From a virus: a stretch of DNA of 64,000 nt. The notes under the pieces are model-generated. The model was given only the letters and a program-made list of their open reading frames with translations. It ran no database searches and had not been told where the DNA came from. Below are positions 15,047 through 35,423 of the stretch, one piece after another. Each line of letters opens with the position of its first letter. Within the stretch, counting starts at the first letter, position 1. The position numbers and the translations under genes were made by a program. The stretch spans positions 1-64,000 of IMG/VR virus record IMGVR_UViG_3300025276_000001, one strand, 5' to 3'.

Positions 15047-17245
15047 ATGATTCCAACTAGCTCAAGCATCTCATCAAATGGATGTGATAACATATCTTCT
15101 AATTGCGTAATTTGGCAAGGTCCGGATATTGCATGTATTGATTTATGCTCAGGTGATACTATCACTGAAATAACATTTAAGTTAGCAACAAAAGTATGTG
15201 ACCTTATTACAAATGGGGTAGTAGCTAATCCAAGTTTAACAGGTTTAGACTTATCATGTTTAAATATTCCAGGTTTAACACCTACTGAATTAGTACCTGT
15301 ATTACAAGAAATGGTTACTGCTATCTGTGCTGATGATGGCCGTAGTGGTAAATCTACATATACTTTACCAATAATGACATTGCCTGCATGTATGCAGTAT
15401 AATGATGTTAATGGAAATCCAGTAACAGAATTACGTTTAGATTTATTTGCATCTCTTATAGCTAATCAAGTTTGTACTAATTTATCTAGTATAAATATAA
15501 TTAACACAACACTTACTTCTTTAGATTCAAGAATAGATATATTGGAAGCTTGTGTTCTTCCTTGTTCAGGTGCAGTAGCTGAAGTACAAGTTATACCAAC
15601 TTGTGTTTTACCAGCTGCATTAACTAACGTTTCAGTTTTACTTCTTGCATTAGAAGTAAGGTTTTGTGCATTAGAAACTGCAGTAGGATTACCTGCAGCA
15701 ATCTTAGGAACAATATCCCAAAGTTTTATAACATCATCCACTTCTACATTAACTACTCCAGGTAGCAATTATGGAAGTATAGGAGGATGGAATAGTTCAC
15801 CTATTAATTTAGCACAAACTGTTCAAAACGCATGGGTAGTAATAGATGACATGTATACAGCTATTGCAGCTATACAACTTAACTGTTGTCCAGGCGGATG
15901 TGATAGTGTTATATATGCATACTCAACTACAAATAATTTAAACCCTAATGGTACAATAAGTGGGGTAACATTCAACTTTATAAATAGTTCAATACCATCA
16001 GGATTTAATGATTGTTCAGGTAGCACAGTTGTTACTTTAACTGATACATCAGGTGTAGCAGTAACAACAGTAGTAAGTGTAAGTACGTTACAAAATAATG
16101 GATCAGGAGTTTTAATTCCTGTGCCTTCATTAGATACTACATCAGCTCTTACAGCAACAGTTGCATTTTGTACATCAGATGGAATAAATACATGTACTGA
16201 AACACAAACTAGTAGTATAGCAGGAGCATTACCATGTCCTATAGTAGCTATATCTGCAATAACTAAAGATGGTTGTACAGTTAACTTCTCAAATACATTA
16301 GGTGTTACAGCAACATATAAAATTGATGCAGTAAATGTATCAACAGGTGCTATTGATGAAACATATACATGGAATAATCCAGGAGGACCATTAAGTTATA
16401 TATTTGTTGGTTTAGTAGCAGGAACTGCTTATAACATTATATTAAATGTTACTTTAAATGGAGTAACAAAAGCTTGTCCAGCAAATGCTGTTACTACTGA
16501 AACAGCTTCACCACCGTGTGATGCTGGTATGGATGTAGCATTTGTAATTGACTATACTTCTAGTATGACTAGTATCATTAATAATATTAAATCAGGTGTA
16601 GCAACTTTAGTAAATACAATACAAACTTCATCAGGTGCTAATGATTATAGAATTTCATTAACAACTGCAGATGAAAATACTTCCGGTGTACCTAATTATA
16701 GTGCATGTACAGATTATACATCTTTACCTGCACCTCAAAAAGTGGTAAATGTTGGTCCATCAGGAAGACGACAAATAATTACTGCATGGGAAAAGTTCCA
16801 AACTAATAATGGAACAAGTTTTTCAAGCCAACTAGCTAAATTAAATGGCGGGGCAGCAGGATCTTGTATTCAAATGGGACAAGGAATAGATGGACCTGAA
16901 CCATGTGATTATGCAGCACAACTGATAACAGGAGCTGGTGCTCTTACAGGAACCTTTAGACCTGCTGTAGCTAAATATGTTATAATTTTAACTGATAACT
17001 TACCAGGTGGTCAGTCTGATGCTTTCAATTCAACTGTATGGGCAGGAATTCAACAAATGATTCTTGATGCAAATAATTCTGGAATCAAATACTTTGTATG
17101 TGGTCCAGGAGCTTCTTTAAATGGATCAGGATCTTTAAGTTCAATTTATCCTTGGAAAGAATTGGCAACACAAACTGGTGGAACATGGAACGTCTCTGCT
17201 GATGCTTCACAAATTAGTGCAGACATAGTAGCAGGGTGTGCATAA
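15047..17245 (+). CDS. Cys-rich virion adhesin with FnIII-like and C-terminal vWA domain (732 aa)
   Basis: The N-terminal 60 residues (with NCVIWQGPDIACIDLCSGD) form a pattern I recognise from structural proteins of flavobacterial phages; it is probably the attachment module. The middle holds many Cys residues and helical LDSRIDILE segments. Residues about 395-490 look like a fibronectin type III domain (CPIVAISAITKDGCTVNF ... LVAGTAYNIILNVT). The C-terminus (about 495-732) is a von Willebrand A domain: MIDAS motif D502-Y-T-S-S506 after VAFVI, and D650 in IILTDN. The first MIDAS Ser is replaced by Thr. Such domains bind ligands through a metal ion, so a head fibre or tail adhesin is likely. 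It is co-transcribed with the 187-residue gene. Confidence 0.7.
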   Translation: MIPTSSSISSNGCDNISSNCVIWQGPDIACIDLCSGDTITEITFKLATKVCDLITNGVVANPSLTGLDLSCLNIPGLTPTELVPVLQEMVTAICADDGRSGKSTYTLPIMTLPACMQYNDVNGNPVTELRLDLFASLIANQVCTNLSSINIINTTLTSLDSRIDILEACVLPCSGAVAEVQVIPTCVLPAALTNVSVLLLALEVRFCALETAVGLPAAILGTISQSFITSSTSTLTTPGSNYGSIGGWNSSPINLAQTVQNAWVVIDDMYTAIAAIQLNCCPGGCDSVIYAYSTTNNLNPNGTISGVTFNFINSSIPSGFNDCSGSTVVTLTDTSGVAVTTVVSVSTLQNNGSGVLIPVPSLDTTSALTATVAFCTSDGINTCTETQTSSIAGALPCPIVAISAITKDGCTVNFSNTLGVTATYKIDAVNVSTGAIDETYTWNNPGGPLSYIFVGLVAGTAYNIILNVTLNGVTKACPANAVTTETASPPCDAGMDVAFVIDYTSSMTSIINNIKSGVATLVNTIQTSSGANDYRISLTTADENTSGVPNYSACTDYTSLPAPQKVVNVGPSGRRQIITAWEKFQTNNGTSFSSQLAKLNGGAAGSCIQMGQGIDGPEPCDYAAQLITGAGALTGTFRPAVAKYVIILTDNLPGGQSDAFNSTVWAGIQQMILDANNSGIKYFVCGPGASLNGSGSLSSIYPWKELATQTGGTWNVSADASQISADIVAGCA

Positions 17246-21453: not shown

Positions 21454-24400
21454 ATGGCAAAGCAAAAGAAACAACCTACTAAGGGTACAACATCTGTAAT
21501 TACTAATTCATTCATTAAAGGGATGAATAAAGATATTACACAATCTATGGAACCTGCTCAGAGTTGGTGGAATGCACGTAATGCAGCAAACAATTCTAAT
21601 GCTGGAGATATGGGTGTCATAGGTAATGAACCATCAAATTTACAATGTGGGGTTATACCATATACTATAATAGGCGCAATACATAGGTATGGAGATGAAT
21701 GGATTATTTATTCAACTGATAATGTATCATCTGAAATAGGACGTTTTGATGATAGTGAGTGTAAGTATACTGTTATTATTAATGACCCTTGTTTAGCATT
21801 TAATAAAAAGTTTTTAATAACTGGAGCTGCAAAAGAAAATTTTGATTGCTCATGGGAAGTTTATTGGGATGATGGAAACAATCCATCAAGGTCTTTAAAC
21901 ATAGATAACGTTCCATACAAACAAGAAATAACTTCAGCACCTGGAGATCCTTGTATTGTATATGGTGACATTTTACCAAGATCATTAAATTGTGAAAAAA
22001 TAAGATTAGCTCCTTTAGTAGATACCCCATGTATAGTACTTGAAAAAGCTACTGATGGTGGTATGTTACAGAATGGTGCATACCAAGCATACATTGCTTA
22101 TACAGAAAATGAACAACGTGTTACAGATTTTATAGGTATATCTAATATACAAACACTATGGAGTCACAAAGGAACTGATGGATCATTAGATGTACATATA
22201 AGTAATCTTGATAAAGATTATGAATTTTTTGAATTGGCTTTATTAATTAGAAACCAAGGTCAATCATATGCTAAACGTATTGGTCTTTATAGTACTGAAA
22301 GAAATGAAATTAATTTAGATTATATAGATGATTCATTAATAGCTATAGATTTAAAATCAATACCACAAAGAAGTCCTTCATATGAAAAATCTGAGGCAAT
22401 GTATGTTGTCAATGATTGGTTGATAAGACAAGGACCAACTGAACAATTTGATTTTAATTATCAACCTATAGCAAATAACATTACAACAAATTTTGTAATA
22501 AACTCTGTACAATCAAACTACTACCACTTAGGTGGAAATAAATTAAGTTATTTACGTGATGAACAATATGCATTTTTTATAAGATGGATATATAACACAG
22601 GGGAAAGATCTTCTTCTTATCATATTCCAGGAAGAGCTCCAGAGTATTATGGTCCTGCAGGGGCAGATGAGAATGTAGATATTTTTGGAGACAATGTTTT
22701 AGATCCAAATGGGGATCCTGTATTTAAAGTTTATAATACAGGAGCTGTTACTACAGCAGTAAGTGAACCACAGTCAGATGGAAGTACAATAATTGCAAGA
22801 GGTAAAATGGGATATTGGGAATCTACAGAAAGGTACCCAGTTAATAGACCAGACATATGGGGTGATTTATGTGGTAAGCCTATTAGGCATCATAAGATGC
22901 CAGCTGAAGGATCAGTAAATGGTTCAAATAAATTAAACTTGACTACTGATGATTCAGATAACATACATTTATTAGGAGTGGAGTTTGGGAATATAGGTAG
23001 ACCTAAGTATAATGATGGAACCTATTTACCAAATGTAGTAGGGTATGAATTACTAAGAGGATCAAGAGGAGGTGCTAAATCAATTTTAGGAAAAGGTTTA
23101 TTTAGGAATATGCGTAAGTATACTGTTCCTAATGCAGAAAATTTAATAGGTAATGATGTACAGGGATTATATCCTAACTACCCTTATAATGATCTAAGAC
23201 CTGATATGTATTTCCATGATGGAAAACGTGGTGATCCTCAGAATCCAGATTTTAATAGAACAGAAAGTTGTGATAACTTTGGTGAATCAATAAGTACTTA
23301 CAAGCCTCTAGGAGCTGATGGTATTGTTGATGGTGTACAATCTGGGTATTCACAAAAGGTATTTACTTTTTCATCACCAGATTTAATGTTTACAAAGCCT
23401 TTTTTAAATGCTTATGAAACTAGAATATATGGAGATTTAAATGGACAGTCTAGTGGATACTTTAAAGCATCAGAAGATCATCCTCAATTTAAATTAATAA
23501 GGAACGGTGCAGCTATTATTTCTGCATTCATTGGTGTAGGTTATGCAATGGGTCAAGTAAGTGGTACTAGAGGATCTAAGTTTATAAGTTCACAAGGTAA
23601 CTATAATGCCGGTGATTTTTATATGGGTCTTGGTACAGGTGGTACCACAGGTTTAGGTTTATCAGCAGCTGCCAATCTCGTTGGTGCAGGTGCCTCTGAA
23701 GTTGTAAATTTAGCTTCATATGCAATATTTGAAACAACAGATTCTACTATGGCACTTGCTGATTTATGGGCAGGTGGTTCTGTAACGGAAATTGCTCAAG
23801 GTGCAATGAACATTGCAGCAATATCTGTAGGTTTAGCACCTGGTGCAACTGGAGGTAAATGGGAAATAGTTAATAATAAGACAACACCTTTATCCAACAT
23901 GCCCGCTCTTTTAAGAGCATTTGCAAGTATGGCTACAACAGGTACAAATATATCCATAGGAGGTAATGAGATTGTTGAGTTAATATATAACTTAGTACGT
24001 CCTTCTGATTTTTGTTTGAAGTATATTTCATCAGGTGTATTTAATGAATTTACTAAAAGAACTTCTGATTTATGGAGAATAAAAAATAGTGATTCAAATT
24101 ATTTAGGTCAATCTTTTCAATCTTTTGATCAAGGTCAATATAAAATAAATAATTTATTTAGACCAAGTACAGTAGTTGTAGGATTAGAAAGAGAATTAGA
24201 ACCACCGTCTACAGAAGATAAATCACGTTTTGTAATTGGAGGTGAAGTAAATGCAAACGGTAGTACAAGTACATATAGTAATAGTTATTTATTAGATATA
24301 GATAGACAACAAAAAAGATCTATCTCAGCTCATTATGGTGCACTTAAATTTAATTTTGATAATCAGTATGGTCAACTTGATGGAATAAAACAAGTTCCAA

Positions 24401-27400
24401 TGAGGGGTTGTGTAGAGTTGATTGATGAAGATCTACCAGAAGCATTTATGTATACATCAGCACCAATCTTTAGTGGAGATGTATTTATCAATAGGTATAC
24501 TGAAAAAGTAATGATGCCTATTTTTGCTCAATTTTTAATGGGTGAACCAGATGAATTTACATATGATTATTCAAATCATGTGAATATTCCTTATCCAAGG
24601 TACTGGATAAACTCACAAAAATATGACATAACTAAGTTAGCTCAAAAAATTGCTACATTAAATATATTAAGTGCAAGTGGATTTAATAATAACACAATTG
24701 ATCCTGTATTGCCAGCTGATTTATTTTATTTAGATAGAGGTTCAGGAACATGTAGTATTGCTGGATTAGGTTCTTTATTTGATACAAATCCTAGTGATCC
24801 CAATCCAATTTTTGCAATGAGGTATGCATATATGTATACACACTCAAATGGTATTTTGGATTTCTTTGTTGAATCAGAAATTAATTTAGCACAAAGAGAT
24901 TGGGAAGATACTAAAGCAAAAAGAATTTATGATATATATCAATACAATGATTTAGTAGATTTATTTCATGCAGCAATTCAAAAAATAGATAACTTTTATA
25001 AATATGATGAATCTTTAAGTCCTGCTAGATTTCCAAGTCAATTAGGTTCTTGGGGAGAAATGCAAGGTAGATTTTATGATCCTTATGTTGCTGCCAATTG
25101 CTATGTATCACGTCCTAAAAGACTTATATATTCTTTACAAGCTCAAGAAGAATCTAAAAAAGATTTTTGGAGAGTCTTTCTAAACTTTAACTATAAAGAT
25201 TTTAAAAATAAAGTTAATGTTATTAAACCAATAAATAAAAACGGAGCTATAATATTCTTCCCTTATTTATCACCACAAATGTTTCAAGGTTTAGATACTC
25301 TTAAGACAGGAATGGGAACTAAATTAACAATAGGTGATGGTGGATTATTTAGTCAACCTTTTCAAAATATTACAAACTCAGATTTATCAAATGAATATGG
25401 ATCTTGTGAAAGTATAAGAGGTGTTATTAATACTCCTATGGGATTATTTTATATTTCTCAAGCACAAGGTAAAATATTTCAATATGCTGGTAAAGGATTA
25501 GATCCTATATCTAATAAAGGAATGAAGTGGTGGTTTGAACAATACTTACCATCTCAACTTATTAAACAATTTCCTGAATTAGAACAATCTGTGTTATCAG
25601 ATAATGCAGTAGCAGGAGTAGGTTGTCAAGCTGTGTATGATCCAAATGATGATATAGTTTACTTTATGAAAAGAGACTATAGTGTTAAAGCTAAGTGGCT
25701 TAGTCAAATCTCATTTTCTGAAACCGCTGGATTTAGGTTATTTAATAGTATACCATTAACAATAGGTGATCCAATTTATTTTGATGATACGTCTTGGACT
25801 ATAAGTTATGATCCTAAGTCTAAAGGGTGGATATCATTTCATGATTGGCATCCGGAGTTTTCTTTGCCAAGTATAAATCATTTCTTTACAACTAAGACAA
25901 TAACTACTGAAGTTCCACAATGTCCTCCGGGATATGATTTTAATCCAACAACTGGATTGTGTGAACAAAGTGTAAATGAAACTATCCCTGCTACAATAAC
26001 AGTAGAAGATATAGTAGCTACTATTACAGGAGGAGCAACAAATTGTGTTCTTGATATAGTTATAGCAATGGACTGGTCAGGTAGTACTGTACAGAATTGT
26101 CCAGGTACTGTTCCTGATTATAATCCTAATACAGGAGCAATGGGAAATACATGTCAAGGAACTGCTCAAATGCGTTGGCTAGATGTATTCTTAAACAGTT
26201 CTGGAATAACAGGACCAATGGCATCAGGAGATTTGCAAATTGGATTTACTGGATGGGAAGGTAGTTCAACAAGATGGATGCAACCAGGTAATAAATCAAT
26301 GACAAACACTGTAACAAGTGTTCAAGCTGTAAATTGGTATTTAGGTAATTGGGGTGTAGGAGTTAATGGTACAGACTTATCTGAGGCAATGAATACAACT
26401 AACCCAACAACTGGTTCAGGTGGTTTTGCACAGCTTAATGATAAAGCTAATTCAACTTTAGGTGATAGAGTATCAGACGCAAGTTTTAAACAAATTTTAA
26501 TTGTTGTAACAGATGGTACTACTGGTACTCCAGAAGTTAATGTTGCTAATTTCCAATCTCCAAATATAACATCTGGTACAGGTCAAGTTACCAATACTGG
26601 TTCATGGGCTAATACTAATTTAGGTGATCCATTAAAGCAAGAAGTATTTGGTGTATTTTGTGGTGGTAATTCTAATGTTCCAGGTAACACTGCTGTTTTA
26701 GATAATGCTTCAAATAGTAGGTATAATACACCTAGTGGTCCTGCAGGCCCAAATCAATTTACAATGAATGCACAAAACAATGCAGAGTTAGAAGCTGTTG
26801 CTAGTCAAGTAGCAGGTTCAGTATGTAGCATACCATTTAGTTGTGACTGTCCTGCAGGTTATACAAAAGTATTCCAGAACGCAACCACATTACAATTTAC
26901 AGAAACATCAGGTACTTGTGATGATACAGGTAAGGTTGAGTGTAGAAAGGTAACATGTGAATGTCCTCCGGCTACAATTCCAGGAACTGTTACTACAGCG
27001 TTAGGAACTTGTCCAGATAGTGCACCATTGATTTATTTAGCTGGACCAAAAGGAGATCCTTCTTTTGTATCAGATAGGCAATGTAATTATTTTTATTATA
27101 ATGGCGTAACACCTAATTATTCAGTTGGGTCTATTTGGAGACATAATGAAAGGTGTGATAGCTATGCAAATTATTATGGAGTTGATTATCCTTGGGAAGT
27201 AGAGTTAGTTGCTAACAGTGGACAAACTGTTAACACGCTAAGAAGTATTGAATATCAAATGGAGGCATATGTATACAAAGGTGTATTGGGATATGCATGT
27301 GGAAATGATAAATGGGAAGACTTGCTTTTTAATTTTGATCAAGCTGTTATTTATAATAATGAACAAACATCCGGATTACTATTACTAACTCCTACACCAT

Positions 27401-27756
27401 TTAATAACCCAATTTTAGAGTTAACATATCCAATAGTAAACACCAATAGTATTAATATATTATGTTCTAAAGTAGAACAAAAATATAGGTTTAATCAATT
27501 TTGGGATATTACAAATGATAGAGGTGAGTTTCCAAGTGCAGGTGGTGTTATTACACAACAACCAATTTGGAATACACAACTTAATGGATATGTTAGAAAC
27601 TTAAATAATATTAATTTAAATTATTTTAAATCTCCACTGCAACATAAAAAATTCAGAAACTATTTTGTTAATGTTATATTAAGAAGACAAGTATCAGGAG
27701 ATAGACAGATGTTGCTAAGATTAAATAATACTAAATTACTTACATCACTTAGATAA
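21454..27756 (+). CDS. Muzzle-type tail protein (P22 gp10-like / crAss-like) with vWA insertion (2100 aa)
   Basis: The N-terminus (NSFIKGMNKDITQSM, then SWWNARNA and GDMGVIGNE) and the motifs SFHDWHPEFS, SIWRHNERCDSY and YRFNQFWDITNDRGEF are features I associate with the large tail stabilisation or muzzle protein of crAss-like phages, which closes the short tail. Between SFHDWHPEFS and SIWRHNERCD lies an extra region (about residues 1488-1880): Cys repeats (CPPGYDF, CDCPAGY, CECPPA) flanking a von Willebrand A domain with MIDAS D1540-W-S-G-S1544 and a second site near D1687 (VVTDGT). Residues about 685-810 include Gly/Ala-rich, weakly hydrophobic stretches. The insertion probably projects from the tail tip and binds the host surface (inference). 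Its stop overlaps the next start. Confidence 0.75.
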   Translation: MAKQKKQPTKGTTSVITNSFIKGMNKDITQSMEPAQSWWNARNAANNSNAGDMGVIGNEPSNLQCGVIPYTIIGAIHRYGDEWIIYSTDNVSSEIGRFDDSECKYTVIINDPCLAFNKKFLITGAAKENFDCSWEVYWDDGNNPSRSLNIDNVPYKQEITSAPGDPCIVYGDILPRSLNCEKIRLAPLVDTPCIVLEKATDGGMLQNGAYQAYIAYTENEQRVTDFIGISNIQTLWSHKGTDGSLDVHISNLDKDYEFFELALLIRNQGQSYAKRIGLYSTERNEINLDYIDDSLIAIDLKSIPQRSPSYEKSEAMYVVNDWLIRQGPTEQFDFNYQPIANNITTNFVINSVQSNYYHLGGNKLSYLRDEQYAFFIRWIYNTGERSSSYHIPGRAPEYYGPAGADENVDIFGDNVLDPNGDPVFKVYNTGAVTTAVSEPQSDGSTIIARGKMGYWESTERYPVNRPDIWGDLCGKPIRHHKMPAEGSVNGSNKLNLTTDDSDNIHLLGVEFGNIGRPKYNDGTYLPNVVGYELLRGSRGGAKSILGKGLFRNMRKYTVPNAENLIGNDVQGLYPNYPYNDLRPDMYFHDGKRGDPQNPDFNRTESCDNFGESISTYKPLGADGIVDGVQSGYSQKVFTFSSPDLMFTKPFLNAYETRIYGDLNGQSSGYFKASEDHPQFKLIRNGAAIISAFIGVGYAMGQVSGTRGSKFISSQGNYNAGDFYMGLGTGGTTGLGLSAAANLVGAGASEVVNLASYAIFETTDSTMALADLWAGGSVTEIAQGAMNIAAISVGLAPGATGGKWEIVNNKTTPLSNMPALLRAFASMATTGTNISIGGNEIVELIYNLVRPSDFCLKYISSGVFNEFTKRTSDLWRIKNSDSNYLGQSFQSFDQGQYKINNLFRPSTVVVGLERELEPPSTEDKSRFVIGGEVNANGSTSTYSNSYLLDIDRQQKRSISAHYGALKFNFDNQYGQLDGIKQVPMRGCVELIDEDLPEAFMYTSAPIFSGDVFINRYTEKVMMPIFAQFLMGEPDEFTYDYSNHVNIPYPRYWINSQKYDITKLAQKIATLNILSASGFNNNTIDPVLPADLFYLDRGSGTCSIAGLGSLFDTNPSDPNPIFAMRYAYMYTHSNGILDFFVESEINLAQRDWEDTKAKRIYDIYQYNDLVDLFHAAIQKIDNFYKYDESLSPARFPSQLGSWGEMQGRFYDPYVAANCYVSRPKRLIYSLQAQEESKKDFWRVFLNFNYKDFKNKVNVIKPINKNGAIIFFPYLSPQMFQGLDTLKTGMGTKLTIGDGGLFSQPFQNITNSDLSNEYGSCESIRGVINTPMGLFYISQAQGKIFQYAGKGLDPISNKGMKWWFEQYLPSQLIKQFPELEQSVLSDNAVAGVGCQAVYDPNDDIVYFMKRDYSVKAKWLSQISFSETAGFRLFNSIPLTIGDPIYFDDTSWTISYDPKSKGWISFHDWHPEFSLPSINHFFTTKTITTEVPQCPPGYDFNPTTGLCEQSVNETIPATITVEDIVATITGGATNCVLDIVIAMDWSGSTVQNCPGTVPDYNPNTGAMGNTCQGTAQMRWLDVFLNSSGITGPMASGDLQIGFTGWEGSSTRWMQPGNKSMTNTVTSVQAVNWYLGNWGVGVNGTDLSEAMNTTNPTTGSGGFAQLNDKANSTLGDRVSDASFKQILIVVTDGTTGTPEVNVANFQSPNITSGTGQVTNTGSWANTNLGDPLKQEVFGVFCGGNSNVPGNTAVLDNASNSRYNTPSGPAGPNQFTMNAQNNAELEAVASQVAGSVCSIPFSCDCPAGYTKVFQNATTLQFTETSGTCDDTGKVECRKVTCECPPATIPGTVTTALGTCPDSAPLIYLAGPKGDPSFVSDRQCNYFYYNGVTPNYSVGSIWRHNERCDSYANYYGVDYPWEVELVANSGQTVNTLRSIEYQMEAYVYKGVLGYACGNDKWEDLLFNFDQAVIYNNEQTSGLLLLTPTPFNNPILELTYPIVNTNSINILCSKVEQKYRFNQFWDITNDRGEFPSAGGVITQQPIWNTQLNGYVRNLNNINLNYFKSPLQHKKFRNYFVNVILRRQVSGDRQMLLRLNNTKLLTSLR

Positions 27757-30700
27757 TGGAAAGAAAAGACAGAAAATCAATAGGGTTAGTTGGGGGTCCA
27801 AATCAATACATAACAGATATATCTGAATTTATTTCTATTGAAGGATATAAAAGAGACAGTCCTGATGTAAATAACCCATATAACATTATTCCGTCAGGTA
27901 ATATTACTATGGAAGATGTAGACTTTGCTGTTAAGGGTAGAGACAACTTGGGTAATGAATTAATAATGGAGCCTGGTGGTAACTACCAGTTCCCAGGAGA
28001 TAGTGTCTTAGAAACCCGCTTAGCACAAGATGGTACAGAAATGCCATATGAAGGTGATATACCAAGTCCAATGGAAGATCCAAATGGGTTTTTATATCAA
28101 ATAGAAGATTTAGTTGGATATCATTTAGATTATCCAAATGGTAAAGGTGAAACTTTTGCAACAATGCCAGGTGAGGAAAATAGCATTGATAATTTAAGAC
28201 ATGCAGGAAGTGCTAGGTATACAGCAGAAGCAATAGGAAAAAAAGTTAAAGAGGTACCTTATGTTGGTGGACTATTGGATTTTGTTGGTGTAGACAAAGC
28301 AGCTGGTTTTATTGGTGCTAATGTATTAGGCTTAGGTCATGAGCTAACATCTTTTTTTGGTGAAGATGAAAGATCATTCTTAACAAAATTACAAGAAATG
28401 GGTGAAGACTCATTTAATAATTTAGTTGGTTCAATTGTTGGATCAACAGATATGGATTCTGATAAGAAAGATAAATTACTAAAAAAACTTTCATTTAATA
28501 ATATTTTACCTGATGGATATGTAAGTACTGAAAATGGAAGAAAGAATGGCCTTTCTGAAGACATATACTTTAAAGATGAAGAAGGAAAAAGAAAAACTCC
28601 AGAATATAAACGTGGTGGTGGTTTACTAGACAAAACTATGGAATGTAATAGTTGCGGTTGGGAATGGAAAGCTGCAGACGGTGGAGCTGATGTATCTACA
28701 TGTCACAAGTGTGGTAGCAGTGCATTACCTAAAGCTCAAGAAGGGAATTTTCCAACTCCAAATATAAAACCAAGAGAAATTGATTTTATTGATTACAATT
28801 CTTTGGAGAGAAGTAAAAGAGATGATGTAAGAAATAAAGTACATCTAAATAAAGCAACAAACTTTGCAGAAAAATGGATGTCAAGTCCAAGATATGCAGA
28901 ATTGTTAAGTAATTCTGGTGGAAATGATTGGTGGAATAATGGATCAGATATAGCAAAGTCAAGAATAAATAACTTAAATCAAATACAAAAAGAAGTAAAA
29001 TATATAAAGGATGATCCTACACAATCTTATACAGAAGAAGAGTTAGAAGGCATAGGAGGTTATTCAAGTAGTAATACTGGTGAAATTCATGTTAACCCGC
29101 AACAGGGTGCTTTAAAGCATCATACAATATATGATCATGAAATTTCACACAGTGTTGATAGACCTGCAAAAGGAGACAATATTGTAAAACAATTTGCAAA
29201 ATTCTATGCTAGAGGTGCGACCCACGCACAACCTAGATTAATACCAAATAGTGATGTAGAACTTACAGAAAAACTTTTAGATAAATCTATACCGCAAGAT
29301 GACATTGTTACATTTTGGGCAAAGTATGGAGACACTCCAGAAGAAGGGACTAGAAACTATTTTTCTGAGCCTACAGAAGTAAGAGCTAGACTTTCTCAAA
29401 TAAGAAGAGAATTAGACAAAGCAGGTGTAGATATATTTAATAATGAAATTACTCCTGAAGACTATGAAAAGGTAAAATATAGAGGTCCAGTAAAAGGCCT
29501 TAAAAAAGTTTATTCTGAAGAAGCTATTATAGAAATGCTGAATACAATATCAGATGCTGGAGAAAATGCTGGAGAAAATAAAGATGGATTATATTATGCT
29601 CAAAGAGGTGGTTCAACACAAAGGGTTAATTCAATATCAAATGATATATATTTAAGACAAACATTTGCTGAGTCAAGTTTTAAACCTGGTGCAAAATCAA
29701 ATGTTGGAGCACAAGGACTAACACAGTTTATGCCTGATACAATAGAGTATTTAATTGAAAGAGGAACACTACCTGAAGACTTTGATATACATGATCCTAA
29801 ACAAGCTGTAATGGCACAAAAACTTTATATGGAAGATATCTATAATAAAGATTTTATCAACAAGCCTAACCAGTCTGATCAAGTTAGGTTAGCTAAAACT
29901 TTAGCTGCATATAATGGAGGACCAACTAGACTTAAAAATATATTGACTGCACAAAAAAATGAAGGAGTAGATATATATAATTCTCTTGATTGGATGTCTG
30001 CTTTACCTAAAGAAAGCAAAGAGTACATTGATTTAATATTATTAAATAAAAACACAACAGGTAGACCTAAGTTTAATGAAAACTTTGATAGTTTATTAAT
30101 TGATGAAAATTACAAAAAATACATTGATCTTTATCAACAAGGTGGTAGTGTAAACTATACCGTTGCTGCTGGAGATAATTTAGGTAAAATTGCTAATAAG
30201 TATAATACATCTGTTCAAGAAATTGTTGATTTAAATAATATAGAGGATGCTAATAAAATTGGTATTAATCAGGAATTAATAATACCTAGTTCACAAATGC
30301 AAGAAGCAGATATTACTTCTGCATATAAAGTAAGATCAGGTGATACATTAGGTAAAATAGCAAAAACATATAATACTACAGCTAAAAATTTAGCAGAGTA
30401 TAATGGTATTAAGAATATGAATATGATTCAGGTTGATCAACAAATATCTATTCCTGATAATATTAGAAAGCAAGTAAAGAAACCTGAGCCAGCTTGGTAT
30501 GGAGTAGATGATGTAAAAACTAGGAACACAAAAACAAACAGTCAGAGTGATACTAATATAATAATGCAATCTCAATTATTAAATAACCCTAACCAAAGCT
30601 ATGTAATTATAGATAAAAAGTCAGGTCAGTTAAGAGTTATGAATGGTGAAGATGAAGCATTGAGTTTTGAGGTTCTTACTGGTGATAATCCTGGTGATGC

Positions 30701-32072
30701 TCAAACTGTAACTAAAATGGTTGATCAAAATAATGATGGTAAAATTACTGATCAAGATAGAAACAGAAAAAACCAATGGGTAACGGATTGGTCTGCTGGT
30801 AATAAATCTACTGGAGCAGGTATATATTCAATAAGTGCTTCTTCACCAACATCAAAGCCTGGATATCAGAATGCTCCAAGTTGGAATTTAATAAATGATA
30901 ATGGTATTGAGGTATCTACAGCAATACATGGTACAACAAATTATAGAAAACAATTCTTTAATGACGGTAACACTGAGAACAACCAAGCATCTAATGGATG
31001 TATAAATGGACAATGTAGTGACTTAGATGCATTATATGATTTAGACTTGCCAATGGGTACTCCTATTTTTATTTTACCAGAAGATGAAGGAAACAATTTC
31101 ATGTTGCAAGATGGTAAAGCAATAATGAAAATGAGTCAAGAAAATAGAAGTGATTATTTAGATTATACTGATTCTAAAGGTAGAACACAAAAAGGTCAAG
31201 GAGGTAACTATACTACAAACACCTTAGTATATAAACCAATAAAAGCTCAGTTCAATGAAGAAAAATTTAAAAAAGAAAGATTTACAGCTTTTGATTTTAA
31301 TGATACTGAAGAATTAGAAAATTCAACAATACCGTTTATACAAGCTCTTGAAAATAACAAGAAAAAAATAATGCAAGAAGCACAAATTTCTGGAGATGTA
31401 TATAATCAAATTGCTAAAATTGCTTTTGGGGTATATGGTACTGAATCAGAATTTGGTGATACACATAGTTGGGTAGGTAATGCTGCAAGAGGTGCAAATA
31501 AAAAATATGGTACAGATGGCTCATCACCAGACATTACAAAAAAATATGAAGGTTTTGACTTACCATTTACTGAGGCAGGAGCAGGAGCACAATCAAATAA
31601 TAATAGTGTAGGCTATACACAAATACGTTGGAGTCAGCTGAATGATAAAGAGAAGAAAGTATTAAGAGCATTTGATATTACATCTAATGAAGACTTTATG
31701 GATCCTACTAAATCAGCAATAGCTACAGCATCAATATTAGGTGTACGTTATAATGAGCAACTTACTGGTGAACAGAAAAAAAATATATGGGCAAACTTAC
31801 CTGGTAAATGGAATAATAGAGCTAATTATGCAGACAGAGTAAAAGAAAACTCAGTCTATTTAGATTTTCAACAAAAAGATGTAATGGAAAATGGTGGTGA
31901 AATTGAAAATCATATCATGTATAAAAACTATGTAAATGGTGTTTATGAAGGAAGTAAAATGGAAACTAAAGGTGCAAAGATTTATGATAAATTAAATAGG
32001 ATACATTATAGAGATGCAAAAGCATCTAACATGACTCCTTCAAATTACGTCATGACTAACGTTATAGGCTAA
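27756..32072 (+). CDS. Multi-domain cell-wall-acting virion protein (1438 aa)
   Basis: Domains in order: four-Cys zinc ribbon (C297-x2-C300, C316-x2-C319); zincin metallopeptidase H461-E-I-S-H465 with a possible third ligand E538 or E541; SLT-type lytic transglycosylase (E639 in FAESSF, then GLTQFMPDT and AAYNGG, about 628-740); two LysM peptidoglycan-binding domains (about 798-845 and 855-901); a YkuD / L,D-transpeptidase-like domain (about 950-1105; H1058 in AIHGT, C1082 in SNGCIN) with an EF-hand-like loop D990-x-N-x-D-G ... D1001; a second lysozyme-like domain (E1230 in GTESEFG, then GYTQIR). Start is coupled to the muzzle stop (TAATG). It is likely carried in the virion and used to cross the host wall. 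The YkuD His in SHGC is Asn here. Confidence 0.85.
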   Translation: MERKDRKSIGLVGGPNQYITDISEFISIEGYKRDSPDVNNPYNIIPSGNITMEDVDFAVKGRDNLGNELIMEPGGNYQFPGDSVLETRLAQDGTEMPYEGDIPSPMEDPNGFLYQIEDLVGYHLDYPNGKGETFATMPGEENSIDNLRHAGSARYTAEAIGKKVKEVPYVGGLLDFVGVDKAAGFIGANVLGLGHELTSFFGEDERSFLTKLQEMGEDSFNNLVGSIVGSTDMDSDKKDKLLKKLSFNNILPDGYVSTENGRKNGLSEDIYFKDEEGKRKTPEYKRGGGLLDKTMECNSCGWEWKAADGGADVSTCHKCGSSALPKAQEGNFPTPNIKPREIDFIDYNSLERSKRDDVRNKVHLNKATNFAEKWMSSPRYAELLSNSGGNDWWNNGSDIAKSRINNLNQIQKEVKYIKDDPTQSYTEEELEGIGGYSSSNTGEIHVNPQQGALKHHTIYDHEISHSVDRPAKGDNIVKQFAKFYARGATHAQPRLIPNSDVELTEKLLDKSIPQDDIVTFWAKYGDTPEEGTRNYFSEPTEVRARLSQIRRELDKAGVDIFNNEITPEDYEKVKYRGPVKGLKKVYSEEAIIEMLNTISDAGENAGENKDGLYYAQRGGSTQRVNSISNDIYLRQTFAESSFKPGAKSNVGAQGLTQFMPDTIEYLIERGTLPEDFDIHDPKQAVMAQKLYMEDIYNKDFINKPNQSDQVRLAKTLAAYNGGPTRLKNILTAQKNEGVDIYNSLDWMSALPKESKEYIDLILLNKNTTGRPKFNENFDSLLIDENYKKYIDLYQQGGSVNYTVAAGDNLGKIANKYNTSVQEIVDLNNIEDANKIGINQELIIPSSQMQEADITSAYKVRSGDTLGKIAKTYNTTAKNLAEYNGIKNMNMIQVDQQISIPDNIRKQVKKPEPAWYGVDDVKTRNTKTNSQSDTNIIMQSQLLNNPNQSYVIIDKKSGQLRVMNGEDEALSFEVLTGDNPGDAQTVTKMVDQNNDGKITDQDRNRKNQWVTDWSAGNKSTGAGIYSISASSPTSKPGYQNAPSWNLINDNGIEVSTAIHGTTNYRKQFFNDGNTENNQASNGCINGQCSDLDALYDLDLPMGTPIFILPEDEGNNFMLQDGKAIMKMSQENRSDYLDYTDSKGRTQKGQGGNYTTNTLVYKPIKAQFNEEKFKKERFTAFDFNDTEELENSTIPFIQALENNKKKIMQEAQISGDVYNQIAKIAFGVYGTESEFGDTHSWVGNAARGANKKYGTDGSSPDITKKYEGFDLPFTEAGAGAQSNNNSVGYTQIRWSQLNDKEKKVLRAFDITSNEDFMDPTKSAIATASILGVRYNEQLTGEQKKNIWANLPGKWNNRANYADRVKENSVYLDFQQKDVMENGGEIENHIMYKNYVNGVYEGSKMETKGAKIYDKLNRIHYRDAKASNMTPSNYVMTNVIG

Positions 32073-32138: not shown

Positions 32139-35100
32139 GTGAAAGTAAACAAATTAAGTTTAAAACAGGGTGGAGGAAGTAGTGAACAACCTTCACATCA
32201 AATGCCAGATGGTAGTGTTATGCCAGGTGCAACTCATCAAGAAGCTGAGGGACAACCTATTATGCAAGACCCAAATCAACAACAAGATCCCGCTATTGCA
32301 CAAATAACAGAGATGGTAAGTAGTGCTTTATCAGATGGAGAAGACCCAGTTGGTATAGTAATGGCTTTGATTGAACAGCAAGTAGATCAAAATATTATAG
32401 CTCAAGCTTTTATGAGTGGTGGTTATGCAGAAGAAGATGTTGTTGCTTTATTTGAAACAGTACAACAAAAATCTCAACCTCCGGCTGCTGCTTCAGCAGA
32501 AGAACAAACTAAAGATCCACAAGAGATTGCAAGAAATCAAGCTATGCAGGAAGAAGCTGTAGCTGCTGAAAGCCAAGAAGCAGAAATGCTTGCGGCTGAA
32601 CAAGATGCAATGTCTGAAACCCTAATGGGTAAATCTGGTATAGAAATTAAACCTGAGAATAAAGGTAAATTTACCAAATGGGCTAAAGCCCGTGGAATGT
32701 CTGTTTCTGAGGCTTATAATAAAGTAATGTCTAACAAAGACAAGTATGCTCCTAATGTAGTAAAGATGGCAAACTTTGCTAAGAATGCAGCAGGTTGGAA
32801 AAAAGAAGAAGGTGGAGAGCAAGAAGCTTATAAGCCACACTTTATGTATAAGGGTAAAAGAAAAATTAGGGCTAAAGATATGGAAACACATCTTAGACTT
32901 AAAGAAGCTGGTTATAATCATGATACACCTAAAGCACAGCCAGGTGGAGAACAAGGAACACAACTAGGAAGAGGTGAATCAATAAATACTAATGGAGAAA
33001 AAGTAAATAAATTTGGTAATACTAATGCTCAACAATCTATAATAAATCAAAATACAACAAGTAAACAAACAACATATCCAACTGAGTATTCCAATTATAG
33101 GAATGCTATGACAGCAAGAAGTGTTTGGGAAGATGGTGATGGTGGTAAAAACTTTTTGAAAGATTACCCACAACAAGCTGAATTAGATTCACTAAGAACA
33201 GTGTATAGAAATTTACCTAATATAACTAATATACCTAAAGGTAAACAAGGTAAAGAAATGATTAAGCGTGCTGATGGATCATATTCTCAAAGAGGCATGT
33301 GGGATAACATTAGAGCTAATAAAGGAAGTGGAAAAAAACCTACAGCTGAAATGTTAGCAGAAGGAAGAAAACTTAAAACAGCTCAAACGGGTACTGGAAA
33401 AACTGCTGCACAAAAATTCTATGAAACAACAGGTGTTGTTAAAAGAGGAGATGTATTAACTAATACTGCTCCAAGATATACATTACCAACTACATTCAGT
33501 GATGGAACAGATTTTACTGTATCTGGAGCTCTATCAACTCTTGCAGATGTTGGATCAACTTTATTTAGTAGTGAACTTGATGAAAATGGTTTGAAGTCAG
33601 GAACCTTTATGGATTGGAAAAAAAAGGGTGCTGTTGAAGATGAAATAAAAGGAAACTATTATAACTATGAAGGTACTATAGACCTTAATGATCCAAACCA
33701 ATATGCCGGAGATAATTTAGATTTATATAATGCATCTAAATATAAGAGACCACTTAGAACAGTAGAACAATATAGTGAAGACGTTATGGAAAACTCCATG
33801 GTCAACTATAATGAAGAAACAAAAGAATATGATTTTACTAGATCAAGTAGAAAAATCAATCCTAATCTACCTGGTGTTAATCAAAATTCTTTAGATGGAG
33901 AAAATCTAAATTACTTTAATGAAGTAGATGCTAAGACCAGACAAGAATTATTAGATTTTGGAAGTAGTGATGCTCCAGAAGGTACTACATTAAGTATAGA
34001 TGAAATGGGTGCAACAAGTTATGTAGATCCAGAAGCTGAGAATCTTAATGAGTATGGTACTATGATGGGTTATAATAAGTCAGGAGTAGATAGACGGCCT
34101 AAAGTTATTGAAGAGGAACAAACTTCTATGATACAACCCAATGAGCAAGGTATGTTTAGAGAGCCTAGTATTGTATCAGTTGATCAAACAGAAGAACCTT
34201 TAAGTTTTAAGGAATGGGCAATGCAAGATAGTGTTCGTAGAATGGGTGCAAATGCTCCACAACAATATCAAGACTATATTAATGGTGTAGAAACAGAAAC
34301 AACTAAACCAAGTCTAGAAGATAAGATAAAAACTGGATTAAATGAAGCAGGTGAATTTATTGAAAGTAAATACAATCAAGCTGCTCCAGTTGTTAGAAAA
34401 GGTATTGATGATGCGGGTATGTTTGTTAAAGACAAAGTTAACAGTGGATTAGAATACTTAGAAAATAAGTTTAAAGAAGGTGGTGATTTACCAAAAGCAC
34501 AGTTTGCTGGACAACCAGGATTCTATGATGCCTTATCAGAGTTTACTAGCAACTTGGATTATTCATCAAATTCAGATCAATCAGATATGTTTAATCAACA
34601 ACAAATGAGTTTTGATAATAATCTTCCTTTTGATAATCCAAATAATCAAAATGCAATAGCAGATTTAAATAATGCTATCAGCTTTGGTCAACAAACTGAT
34701 TACAATAGAGATACTGAAGCTGTTAAACGTGCACAAATTGATAATGGGACTTATGGTAATAATAAACAACAATGTCCTGAAGGTCAAGAGTATGATGAAG
34801 TAATGGGACAATGTGTATTAAAAACTGTTGATGTTGTTGAAGATGAAGTTGCAGTTGCAAAACCGCTATATGAACCTGATGCTCCTACAGTTAAAAGAAC
34901 AAATAAATTTAGTGGTGGTTTAAATAGATTTTTAGATAGTAAAGAAGTTGGTGCTTTTGAAGATGTTTCTACAGCAGCTGTAGCAGTAGCAGGTGTAGCA
35001 AATGATTTCTTTAGAGAACGTAGTGTAAATGAAGCAACAGCAAGCAATAGAGCTAATGCAACAGCAGATGAAGTATATGGAGTCAATGAAGATCCATTTA

Positions 35101-35423
35101 TGAAAAGAGGTTCATGGGATATTAATACAGGTACATTTGGTAGTGAAGGACAAAGAACAGTAAGAACAAATATGGGTACTGCTAAAAATGGAGGAGGAAT
35201 AAACAATGCAGGATTTAAAGCTTTGCCACCACAAGCACAACAAAATATTTTAGATAACATGTTATATGGTGGTGATCCAAACCCAGGTATTAGAGCACTT
35301 AGAAAAGTTGCTCCAGAAGTAGTATCAAAAATGGGATATAAATCAGGTGGAGAAACCATCAACGTAAATTCTACTATCTTAGCAAAACTAATTGCAGCGG
35401 GAGCTGATATTGAAATACTATAG
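32139..35423 (+). CDS. Putative internal virion (cargo) protein with KPENKGKFT module (1094 aa)
   Basis: The chosen start is GTG 32139 (protein VKVNKLSLKQGGG), the best codon after the promoter element; it is the only non-ATG start used here. The protein is hydrophilic and low-complexity, rich in Gln, Glu, Asn and Ala. Residues about 160-230 (GIEIKPENKGKFTKWAKARG, then VKMANFAKNAAGW) form a short module seen in internal or tail proteins of many crAss-like and related phages. The KAQPGGEQG and KEGGDLPKAQ linkers resemble joints in such proteins. The C-terminus has repeated Gly-rich helices. Probably packaged in the capsid; no enzyme motif seen. Confidence 0.65.
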   Translation: MKVNKLSLKQGGGSSEQPSHQMPDGSVMPGATHQEAEGQPIMQDPNQQQDPAIAQITEMVSSALSDGEDPVGIVMALIEQQVDQNIIAQAFMSGGYAEEDVVALFETVQQKSQPPAAASAEEQTKDPQEIARNQAMQEEAVAAESQEAEMLAAEQDAMSETLMGKSGIEIKPENKGKFTKWAKARGMSVSEAYNKVMSNKDKYAPNVVKMANFAKNAAGWKKEEGGEQEAYKPHFMYKGKRKIRAKDMETHLRLKEAGYNHDTPKAQPGGEQGTQLGRGESINTNGEKVNKFGNTNAQQSIINQNTTSKQTTYPTEYSNYRNAMTARSVWEDGDGGKNFLKDYPQQAELDSLRTVYRNLPNITNIPKGKQGKEMIKRADGSYSQRGMWDNIRANKGSGKKPTAEMLAEGRKLKTAQTGTGKTAAQKFYETTGVVKRGDVLTNTAPRYTLPTTFSDGTDFTVSGALSTLADVGSTLFSSELDENGLKSGTFMDWKKKGAVEDEIKGNYYNYEGTIDLNDPNQYAGDNLDLYNASKYKRPLRTVEQYSEDVMENSMVNYNEETKEYDFTRSSRKINPNLPGVNQNSLDGENLNYFNEVDAKTRQELLDFGSSDAPEGTTLSIDEMGATSYVDPEAENLNEYGTMMGYNKSGVDRRPKVIEEEQTSMIQPNEQGMFREPSIVSVDQTEEPLSFKEWAMQDSVRRMGANAPQQYQDYINGVETETTKPSLEDKIKTGLNEAGEFIESKYNQAAPVVRKGIDDAGMFVKDKVNSGLEYLENKFKEGGDLPKAQFAGQPGFYDALSEFTSNLDYSSNSDQSDMFNQQQMSFDNNLPFDNPNNQNAIADLNNAISFGQQTDYNRDTEAVKRAQIDNGTYGNNKQQCPEGQEYDEVMGQCVLKTVDVVEDEVAVAKPLYEPDAPTVKRTNKFSGGLNRFLDSKEVGAFEDVSTAAVAVAGVANDFFRERSVNEATASNRANATADEVYGVNEDPFMKRGSWDINTGTFGSEGQRTVRTNMGTAKNGGGINNAGFKALPPQAQQNILDNMLYGGDPNPGIRALRKVAPEVVSKMGYKSGGETINVNSTILAKLIAAGADIEIL

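Follow-up and report, generated by a model that had tools for sequence, protein, structure and literature searches.

A probable virion cargo protein of a crAss-like phage pairs a YkuD-fold domain with predicted wall-cutting domains

A large multi-domain protein in a crAss-like phage

We analyzed a 64,000-nucleotide stretch of DNA (henceforth the window) that forms part of the 114,099-bp virus record IMGVR_UViG_3300025276_000001 from IMG/VR. An open reading frame at 27756-32072 on the forward strand, which also carries all the protein features described below, encodes a protein of 1438 amino acids that is probably carried in the phage particle and ejected at infection. The protein, which carries four or five wall tools, combines an SLT lytic transglycosylase domain, two LysM domains, a YkuD/L,D-transpeptidase-fold domain and a lysozyme/transglycosylase-like domain that we call lyz2. 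We lean, by a little, towards a virion cargo protein that acts at the entry stage: it would open the wall locally, and its YkuD domain would cleave or exchange L,D bonds. We computed the domains, fold, conservation, domain pairing, synteny and the anchor shared with a virion protein, and from these we infer ejection, wall action and the activities of YkuD and lyz2. A preliminary description of this DNA had proposed a wall multi-tool in a virion protein that might cut the wall and then reseal it. The multi-tool, in a protein that is probably part of the virion and has a conserved YkuD-fold active site, was upheld, and the cut-and-reseal role is plausible but less likely.

Gene position and virion status

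The upstream neighbor (21454-27756, forward strand) is a homologue of muzzle proteins. Searches with tblastn and phmmer relate it to the "Muzzle protein" of csAssE-Sib and to a structural protein in the virions of the Cellulophaga phages phi4:1 (gp042) and phi17:2, and we therefore assign the virus to the crAss-like phages. In crAss001, cargo protein C1 (gp45) comes from the gene behind the muzzle gene, and parts of it are found in the tail and the capsid, poised for ejection (PMC10172136). Syntenic homologues of the 1438-amino acid protein lie behind the muzzle gene in more than 50 viral contigs.

A second line of evidence comes from the N-terminal anchor (aa 1-98; 27756-28049), which is common to nearly all relatives. 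We checked earlier profile E-values for circularity by rebuilding the profiles from phage contigs only. With such a profile, the N-terminal ~100 amino acids match phi4:1 gp040 (E 4.6e-17), a structural protein detected in virions by tandem mass spectrometry. The same profile retrieves a Leptolyngbya phage protein (E 8.1e-12), the gene of which is directly behind a muzzle homologue. Gene position and the virion homologue together suggest ejection into the host. In a Pfam scan, the protein was found to be without the portal-bound crAss_CARG1 domain.

The record also encodes an Amidase_2 and peptidoglycan-binding endolysin (102582-103496) and a holin-like protein. As a separate endolysin exists, we rejected the identification of the 1438-amino acid protein as the lysis endolysin. 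With both genes present, the protein would not be needed for lysis, and a role in entry is likelier than a role in lysis.

The YkuD domain

The YkuD domain (aa 948-1106; 30597-31073) matches PF03734 with an E-value of 5.3e-8 and 34 bits, against a curated cut-off of 23.4. In 19 aligned copies of the YkuD-lyz2 tandem, two of them cellular, H1058 (30927-30929), G1081 and C1082 (30999-31001) are invariant, and either Ser or Thr occupies position 1079. AlphaFold models are of moderate confidence, with a mean predicted local distance difference test score (pLDDT) of 73 for the domain and of 77 for the tandem, the YkuD part of which mostly scores 75-93. Almost all of the best Foldseek matches in the PDB are enzymes of the L,D-transpeptidase fold (probability 1.00; about 10-17% identity), among them Ldtfm, Bacillus subtilis YkuD, Pgp2, Csd6 and Bd1075. 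The fold, on which the preliminary description had staked its reading, was thus matched by the model and by Foldseek.

The same description had placed C1082 in the active site. The residue aligns with the catalytic cysteine, which is consistent with that placement, but the surroundings depart from the full motif H-X-X(14-17)-[S/T]-H-G-C-h (PMC9638812): the phage protein reads S-N-G-C-I and has 20 residues between H1058 and S1079. It is a member of the YkuD family by profile, fold and the Cys/His pair, although its motif is not that of a canonical transpeptidase. S-N-G-C is found in all of the 11 phage copies aligned first and S-Y-G-C in one later copy, and the position before G-C varies among the bacterial relatives (Y, M, T, G). 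The residue two positions after the cysteine (C+2) is Asn, or Arg in two divergent copies.

A second cysteine lies five residues past the nucleophile in most phage copies (C-I-N-G-x-C, aa 1082-1087; 30999-31016) and three residues past it in two others. It is absent from the bacterial relatives, and could conceivably act as a redox lock on the enzyme. No YkuD relative was found by tblastn in isolated phages, and among isolates we saw no cultured relative that carries the YkuD-lyz2 pair. We rejected crAss001 gp30, described as an "L,D-carboxypeptidase/transpeptidase", as a relative because it is a DUF5675 protein.

The lyz2 domain and its pairing with YkuD

A second lysozyme had been predicted around E1230 (31443-31445). 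The corresponding domain, lyz2 (aa 1160-1375; 31233-31880), has an all-helical model, and E1230 and an S-x-G-x-T-Q motif are invariant in the 19 tandem copies. These residues recall the E...G..Q pattern seen in lysozyme-like enzymes. Fold hits were weak and went to GH19, SLT and goose-lysozyme-like viral proteins, and neither Pfam nor PDB sequences gave a match. Comparison excluded both a recognizable copy of SLT and the tail lysozyme of csAssE-Sib, and lyz2 is a family unrecognized by Pfam and NCBIfam.

Of the 43 complete, non-redundant relatives, 15 carry both YkuD and lyz2 and 28 lack both; none has one domain on its own. In all 15, lyz2 sits about 45-92 amino acids downstream of YkuD. Kinship among the relatives makes a simple probability for this pairing unreliable. 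Since SLT and LysM change place freely with respect to the pair, we consider the pair to be a unit.

The pair was also seen in a different viral protein of ~629 amino acids that has neither the N- nor the C-terminal anchor (L087 and L093). A 114,697-bp contig (L094) filed under a Pseudomonadales metagenome-assembled genome (MAG) is a relative of the phage and probably a mis-binned virus; the YkuD-lyz2 cargo proteins of L094 and L035 are nearly identical.

SLT, LysM and zincin-like regions

The SLT domain spans aa 615-770 (29598-30065), with a PF01464 match at 638-736 (E 5.8e-17). The catalytic E639 and the G..Q and AYN.G (YN.G) motifs are invariant in 12 SLT copies. The two LysM domains (PF01476; aa 800-845 and 855-900; 30153-30455) have an E-value of 4.6e-27 together. 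SLT, both LysM domains and YkuD had all been claimed beforehand, and each scored above its Pfam cut-off in the 1438-amino acid protein; the residues named with the claims (E639, E1230, H1058 and C1082) were all correct in the translation.

The N-terminal half contains a zinc-ribbon-like CxxC...CxxC segment (aa 295-322; 28638-28721), which recurs directly behind the N-terminal anchor in many homologues, and a zincin-like region (aa 359-600; 28830-29555). In the zincin-like region, an HE(I/L)SH motif and a downstream Glu (H461, E462, H465 and E541) are conserved in 7 sequences, and the region has no curated family match in Pfam. Going by our reading of the themes in PMC5512222, this part may process a polyprotein and need not be a wall enzyme.

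Predicted activity of YkuD and proposed mechanism

The YkuD fold includes the cross-linker Ldtfm, the LD-carboxypeptidases Csd6, Pgp2 and Bd1075 (PMC8938487), the dual-activity, exchange-active effector Tlde1a (PMC9638812) and the amidase DpaA (PMC8263019). As one fold holds cross-linkers, carboxypeptidases, exchangers and amidases, a modeled fold would not specify the activity. We compared two motif positions. In Tlde1a, mutation of the S-H-G-C His left D-amino-acid exchange at the wild-type level, while cross-linking fell strongly and LD-carboxypeptidase activity in part (PMC9638812). At C+2, Arg is stated to mark transpeptidases and Ala or Asn to mark DpaA-like amidases (PMC8263019). On balance, the motif positions tilt modestly against cross-linking.

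In the mechanism that we propose, the anchors would dock the protein in the cargo zone of the tail or capsid, and the protein would be ejected into the periplasm ahead of the DNA. The LysM domains would hold it on the wall while the SLT and E1230 domains cut glycan strands. Via C1082 and H1058, YkuD would attack the L-centre of diaminopimelate in stem peptides. It would cleave or exchange L,D bonds, which appears likelier than the formation of new cross-links, and could also remove the LD-cross-links that hinder lytic transglycosylases. The wall would thereby be opened locally to let the ejection conduit through. Lytic transglycosylases, those of phages among them, are inhibited by LD-cross-links, which protect cells from transglycosylase-armed phages (PMC11390936), and this would be a reason to couple a cutter with an enzyme acting on L,D bonds.

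Several points weigh against this explanation. There is an extra gene between the muzzle gene and gp040 in phi4:1, and homology to crAss001 gp45 was not detectable by profile search. The lyz2 domain has no Pfam, PDB-sequence or hhalign match to any known lysozyme or transglycosylase family. Finally, the Asn at C+2 would fit both DpaA-like amidases and the cross-linker Ldtfm, which also has Asn there, and Arg takes its place in the two divergent copies.

The cut-and-reseal role would have YkuD form LD-cross-links as a fence bordering the hole that the SLT and E1230 domains make. This would shut the wall once the DNA is in, limit transglycosylase damage and perhaps hinder other phages armed with transglycosylases. 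YkuD always stands beside a presumed cutter, which agrees with such a role, as do the block that LD-cross-links impose on transglycosylases and the C+2 Asn shared with a cross-linker. Bdellovibrio reinforces invaded prey walls by L,D-transpeptidase activity (PMC7511926), a precedent that makes resealing plausible, and a homologous tandem occurs in Bacteriovoracales (see below). Against it, the His of S-H-G-C is replaced by Asn or another residue in all copies, and in Tlde1a the loss of this His hit cross-linking rather than exchange. Resealing would also have to be achieved by few molecules per virion and would need donor tetrapeptides on site. We regard it as rather unlikely.

A family with constant ends and a shuffled middle

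We sampled sixty viral contigs that carry the muzzle gene. In nearly all contigs that reach far enough, a protein with the same N-terminal anchor is encoded right behind the muzzle gene. Complete relatives also have in common a C-terminal anchor of ~60 amino acids (aa 1376-1438 in the 1438-amino acid protein; 31881-32069), which is kept whatever their middle, and their middles differ. The 43 non-redundant complete relatives range from 406 to 2185 amino acids. Among 37 relatives scanned with Pfam, we found SLT in 11, LysM in 10, YkuD in 9, PG_binding_1 in 7, ART-PolyVal in 4 and SET in 1. These counts support a middle that acts as an exchangeable set of mostly peptidoglycan tools. Because only the N- and C-terminal anchors are shared around the shuffled middle, we describe the protein as a polyvalent-type cargo protein. 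A polymorphic toxin with an interchangeable tail was considered and dropped, as the C-terminus is constant.

The freely shuffled middles would suit a plain lysis endolysin or tail lysin that gathered redundant domains by recombination, with YkuD as one more hydrolase, and YkuD has been recorded in phage lytic proteins, if rarely (10 cases in PhaLP; PMC8310338). The separate Amidase_2 endolysin and holin-like gene speak against such a lysin, and the fixed YkuD-lyz2 pair, with catalytic residues invariant over long divergence, argues against a chance gathering. We judge this explanation improbable. Placement of the domains also bears on the idea that YkuD covalently joins an injected or other phage protein to host peptidoglycan and so anchors the ejection conduit. 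The fold accepts proteins as substrates, as Escherichia coli LdtA-C attach Lpp (PMC8263019), and the LysM domains are alongside. In the relatives, however, the position and surroundings of YkuD shift, and no acceptor Lys conserved at a fixed end of the protein was identified, although none was specifically tested for; we give this idea very little credence.

The ADP-ribosyltransferase (ART-PolyVal) in 4 of the 37 relatives and the SET domain in one indicate that effectors are probably injected from this locus besides wall enzymes. The cargo protein and its relatives contain an AQxG(G) motif, often LPKAQxGG, which is 9-12 times commoner than in shuffled sequences, a ratio inflated by homology. 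Ninety of 92 copies lie outside recognized enzyme domains, at junctions, and the motif also occurs in the next gene (32139-35423). We speculate that it could be a processing or docking site. Single-sequence pattern searches of IMG/VR with the YkuD piece and with the whole protein gave no matches, and an alignment of relatives was required.

Relatives in Bacteriovoracales

A genome scan detected YkuD relatives in Gastranaerophilales, a rumen bacterium, a cyanobacterial MAG and two Bacteriovoracaceae MAGs. In the two Bacteriovoracaceae MAGs, lyz2 lies behind YkuD, the protein has a signal-peptide-like N-terminus and ordinary cellular genes surround it. A profile built from phage sequences only detects lyz2 in these two proteins with E-values of 1.3e-13 and 3e-11. 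The lyz2 domain is present in 47 of 129 Bacteriovoracales genomes and, among the Bacteriovoracales matches listed, YkuD is upstream of lyz2 in 10 of the 12 loci examined. Phylum-wide, the tandem profile matches 69 of 291 genomes, mostly to lyz2 alone, and at least 11 have both domains in one match.

In the tree, phage YkuD sequences cluster as a single group (92/89) that is adjacent to the Bacteriovoracales group (99/97) rather than nested in it, and deep placements are unsure. We took the predator status of the Bacteriovoracales MAGs from that of their group. It is possible to imagine a two-enzyme porthole kit in the virion that opens the wall and then strengthens or seals it via LD-cross-links, and that is shared by ancestry with Bacteriovorax-type predators, which would use it on prey. 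We hold this to be unlikely.

Other genes of the record

The record encodes GroEL-like (74419-76050, reverse strand; E 1.2e-76) and GroES-like (106324-106605, forward strand; E 4.2e-16) chaperonins. A von Willebrand A-type match in 15047-17245 is weak (E 0.0003, below cut-off), and visual inspection showed a similar MIDAS-like sequence towards the C-terminus of the muzzle protein.

To our knowledge, the wall enzymes that phages inject are normally all cutters. Here, a conserved enzyme predicted to act on L,D bonds is tied to a transglycosylase-like cutter, and the combination is common to phages and bacteria of a predatory group. This raises the question of whether external attackers add or remove the LD-cross-links that block transglycosylases (PMC11390936).

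Comparison with known systems

We compared the protein to known virion cargo proteins. Like crAss001 gp45 (C1), a virion cargo protein placed for first ejection (PMC10172136), it is encoded right behind the muzzle gene. Unlike it, gp45 has crAss_CARG1 and no wall enzyme, and we found no sequence similarity between the two. The phi4:1 gp040 protein, detected in the virion as described above, has a homologous N-terminal anchor and belongs to a muzzle-linked block, but its gene is the second behind the muzzle gene and it contains no Pfam-recognized wall domain.

Polyvalent proteins (PMC5512222), known from phages and conjugative elements, are large injected proteins with mixes of zincin, lysozyme, ART and other domains. 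The family described here resembles them in that relatives carry ART-PolyVal and, judged by domain mix only, in that unrelated activities are mixed in one protein. It differs in that its domains are mostly wall tools placed between constant anchors; the text of the polyvalent survey (PMC5512222) contains no YkuD, transpeptidase or LysM. In BFVD, one polyvalent-type protein of an uncultured phage matches the YkuD part.

Ldtfm, B. subtilis YkuD, Csd6, Pgp2, Bd1075 and Tlde1a (the last from PMC9638812) share the fold and the His/Cys pair with the phage copy, which differs from them in having S-N-G-C rather than S-H-G-C and in the His-to-Ser spacing of 20 residues. Besides the PhaLP cases, YkuD has been recorded in one gut endolysin (PMC13284279). 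The secreted YkuD-lyz2 proteins of Bacteriovoracales are cellular, have a signal-peptide-like N-terminus in place of the anchors and have no SLT or LysM match in Pfam, but they share with the phage protein both domains, their order and the invariant residues. Within the literature searched, what is new is the crAss-like phage cargo family with its constant anchors, together with the fixed YkuD-lyz2 pair and the presence of this pair in Bacteriovoracales.

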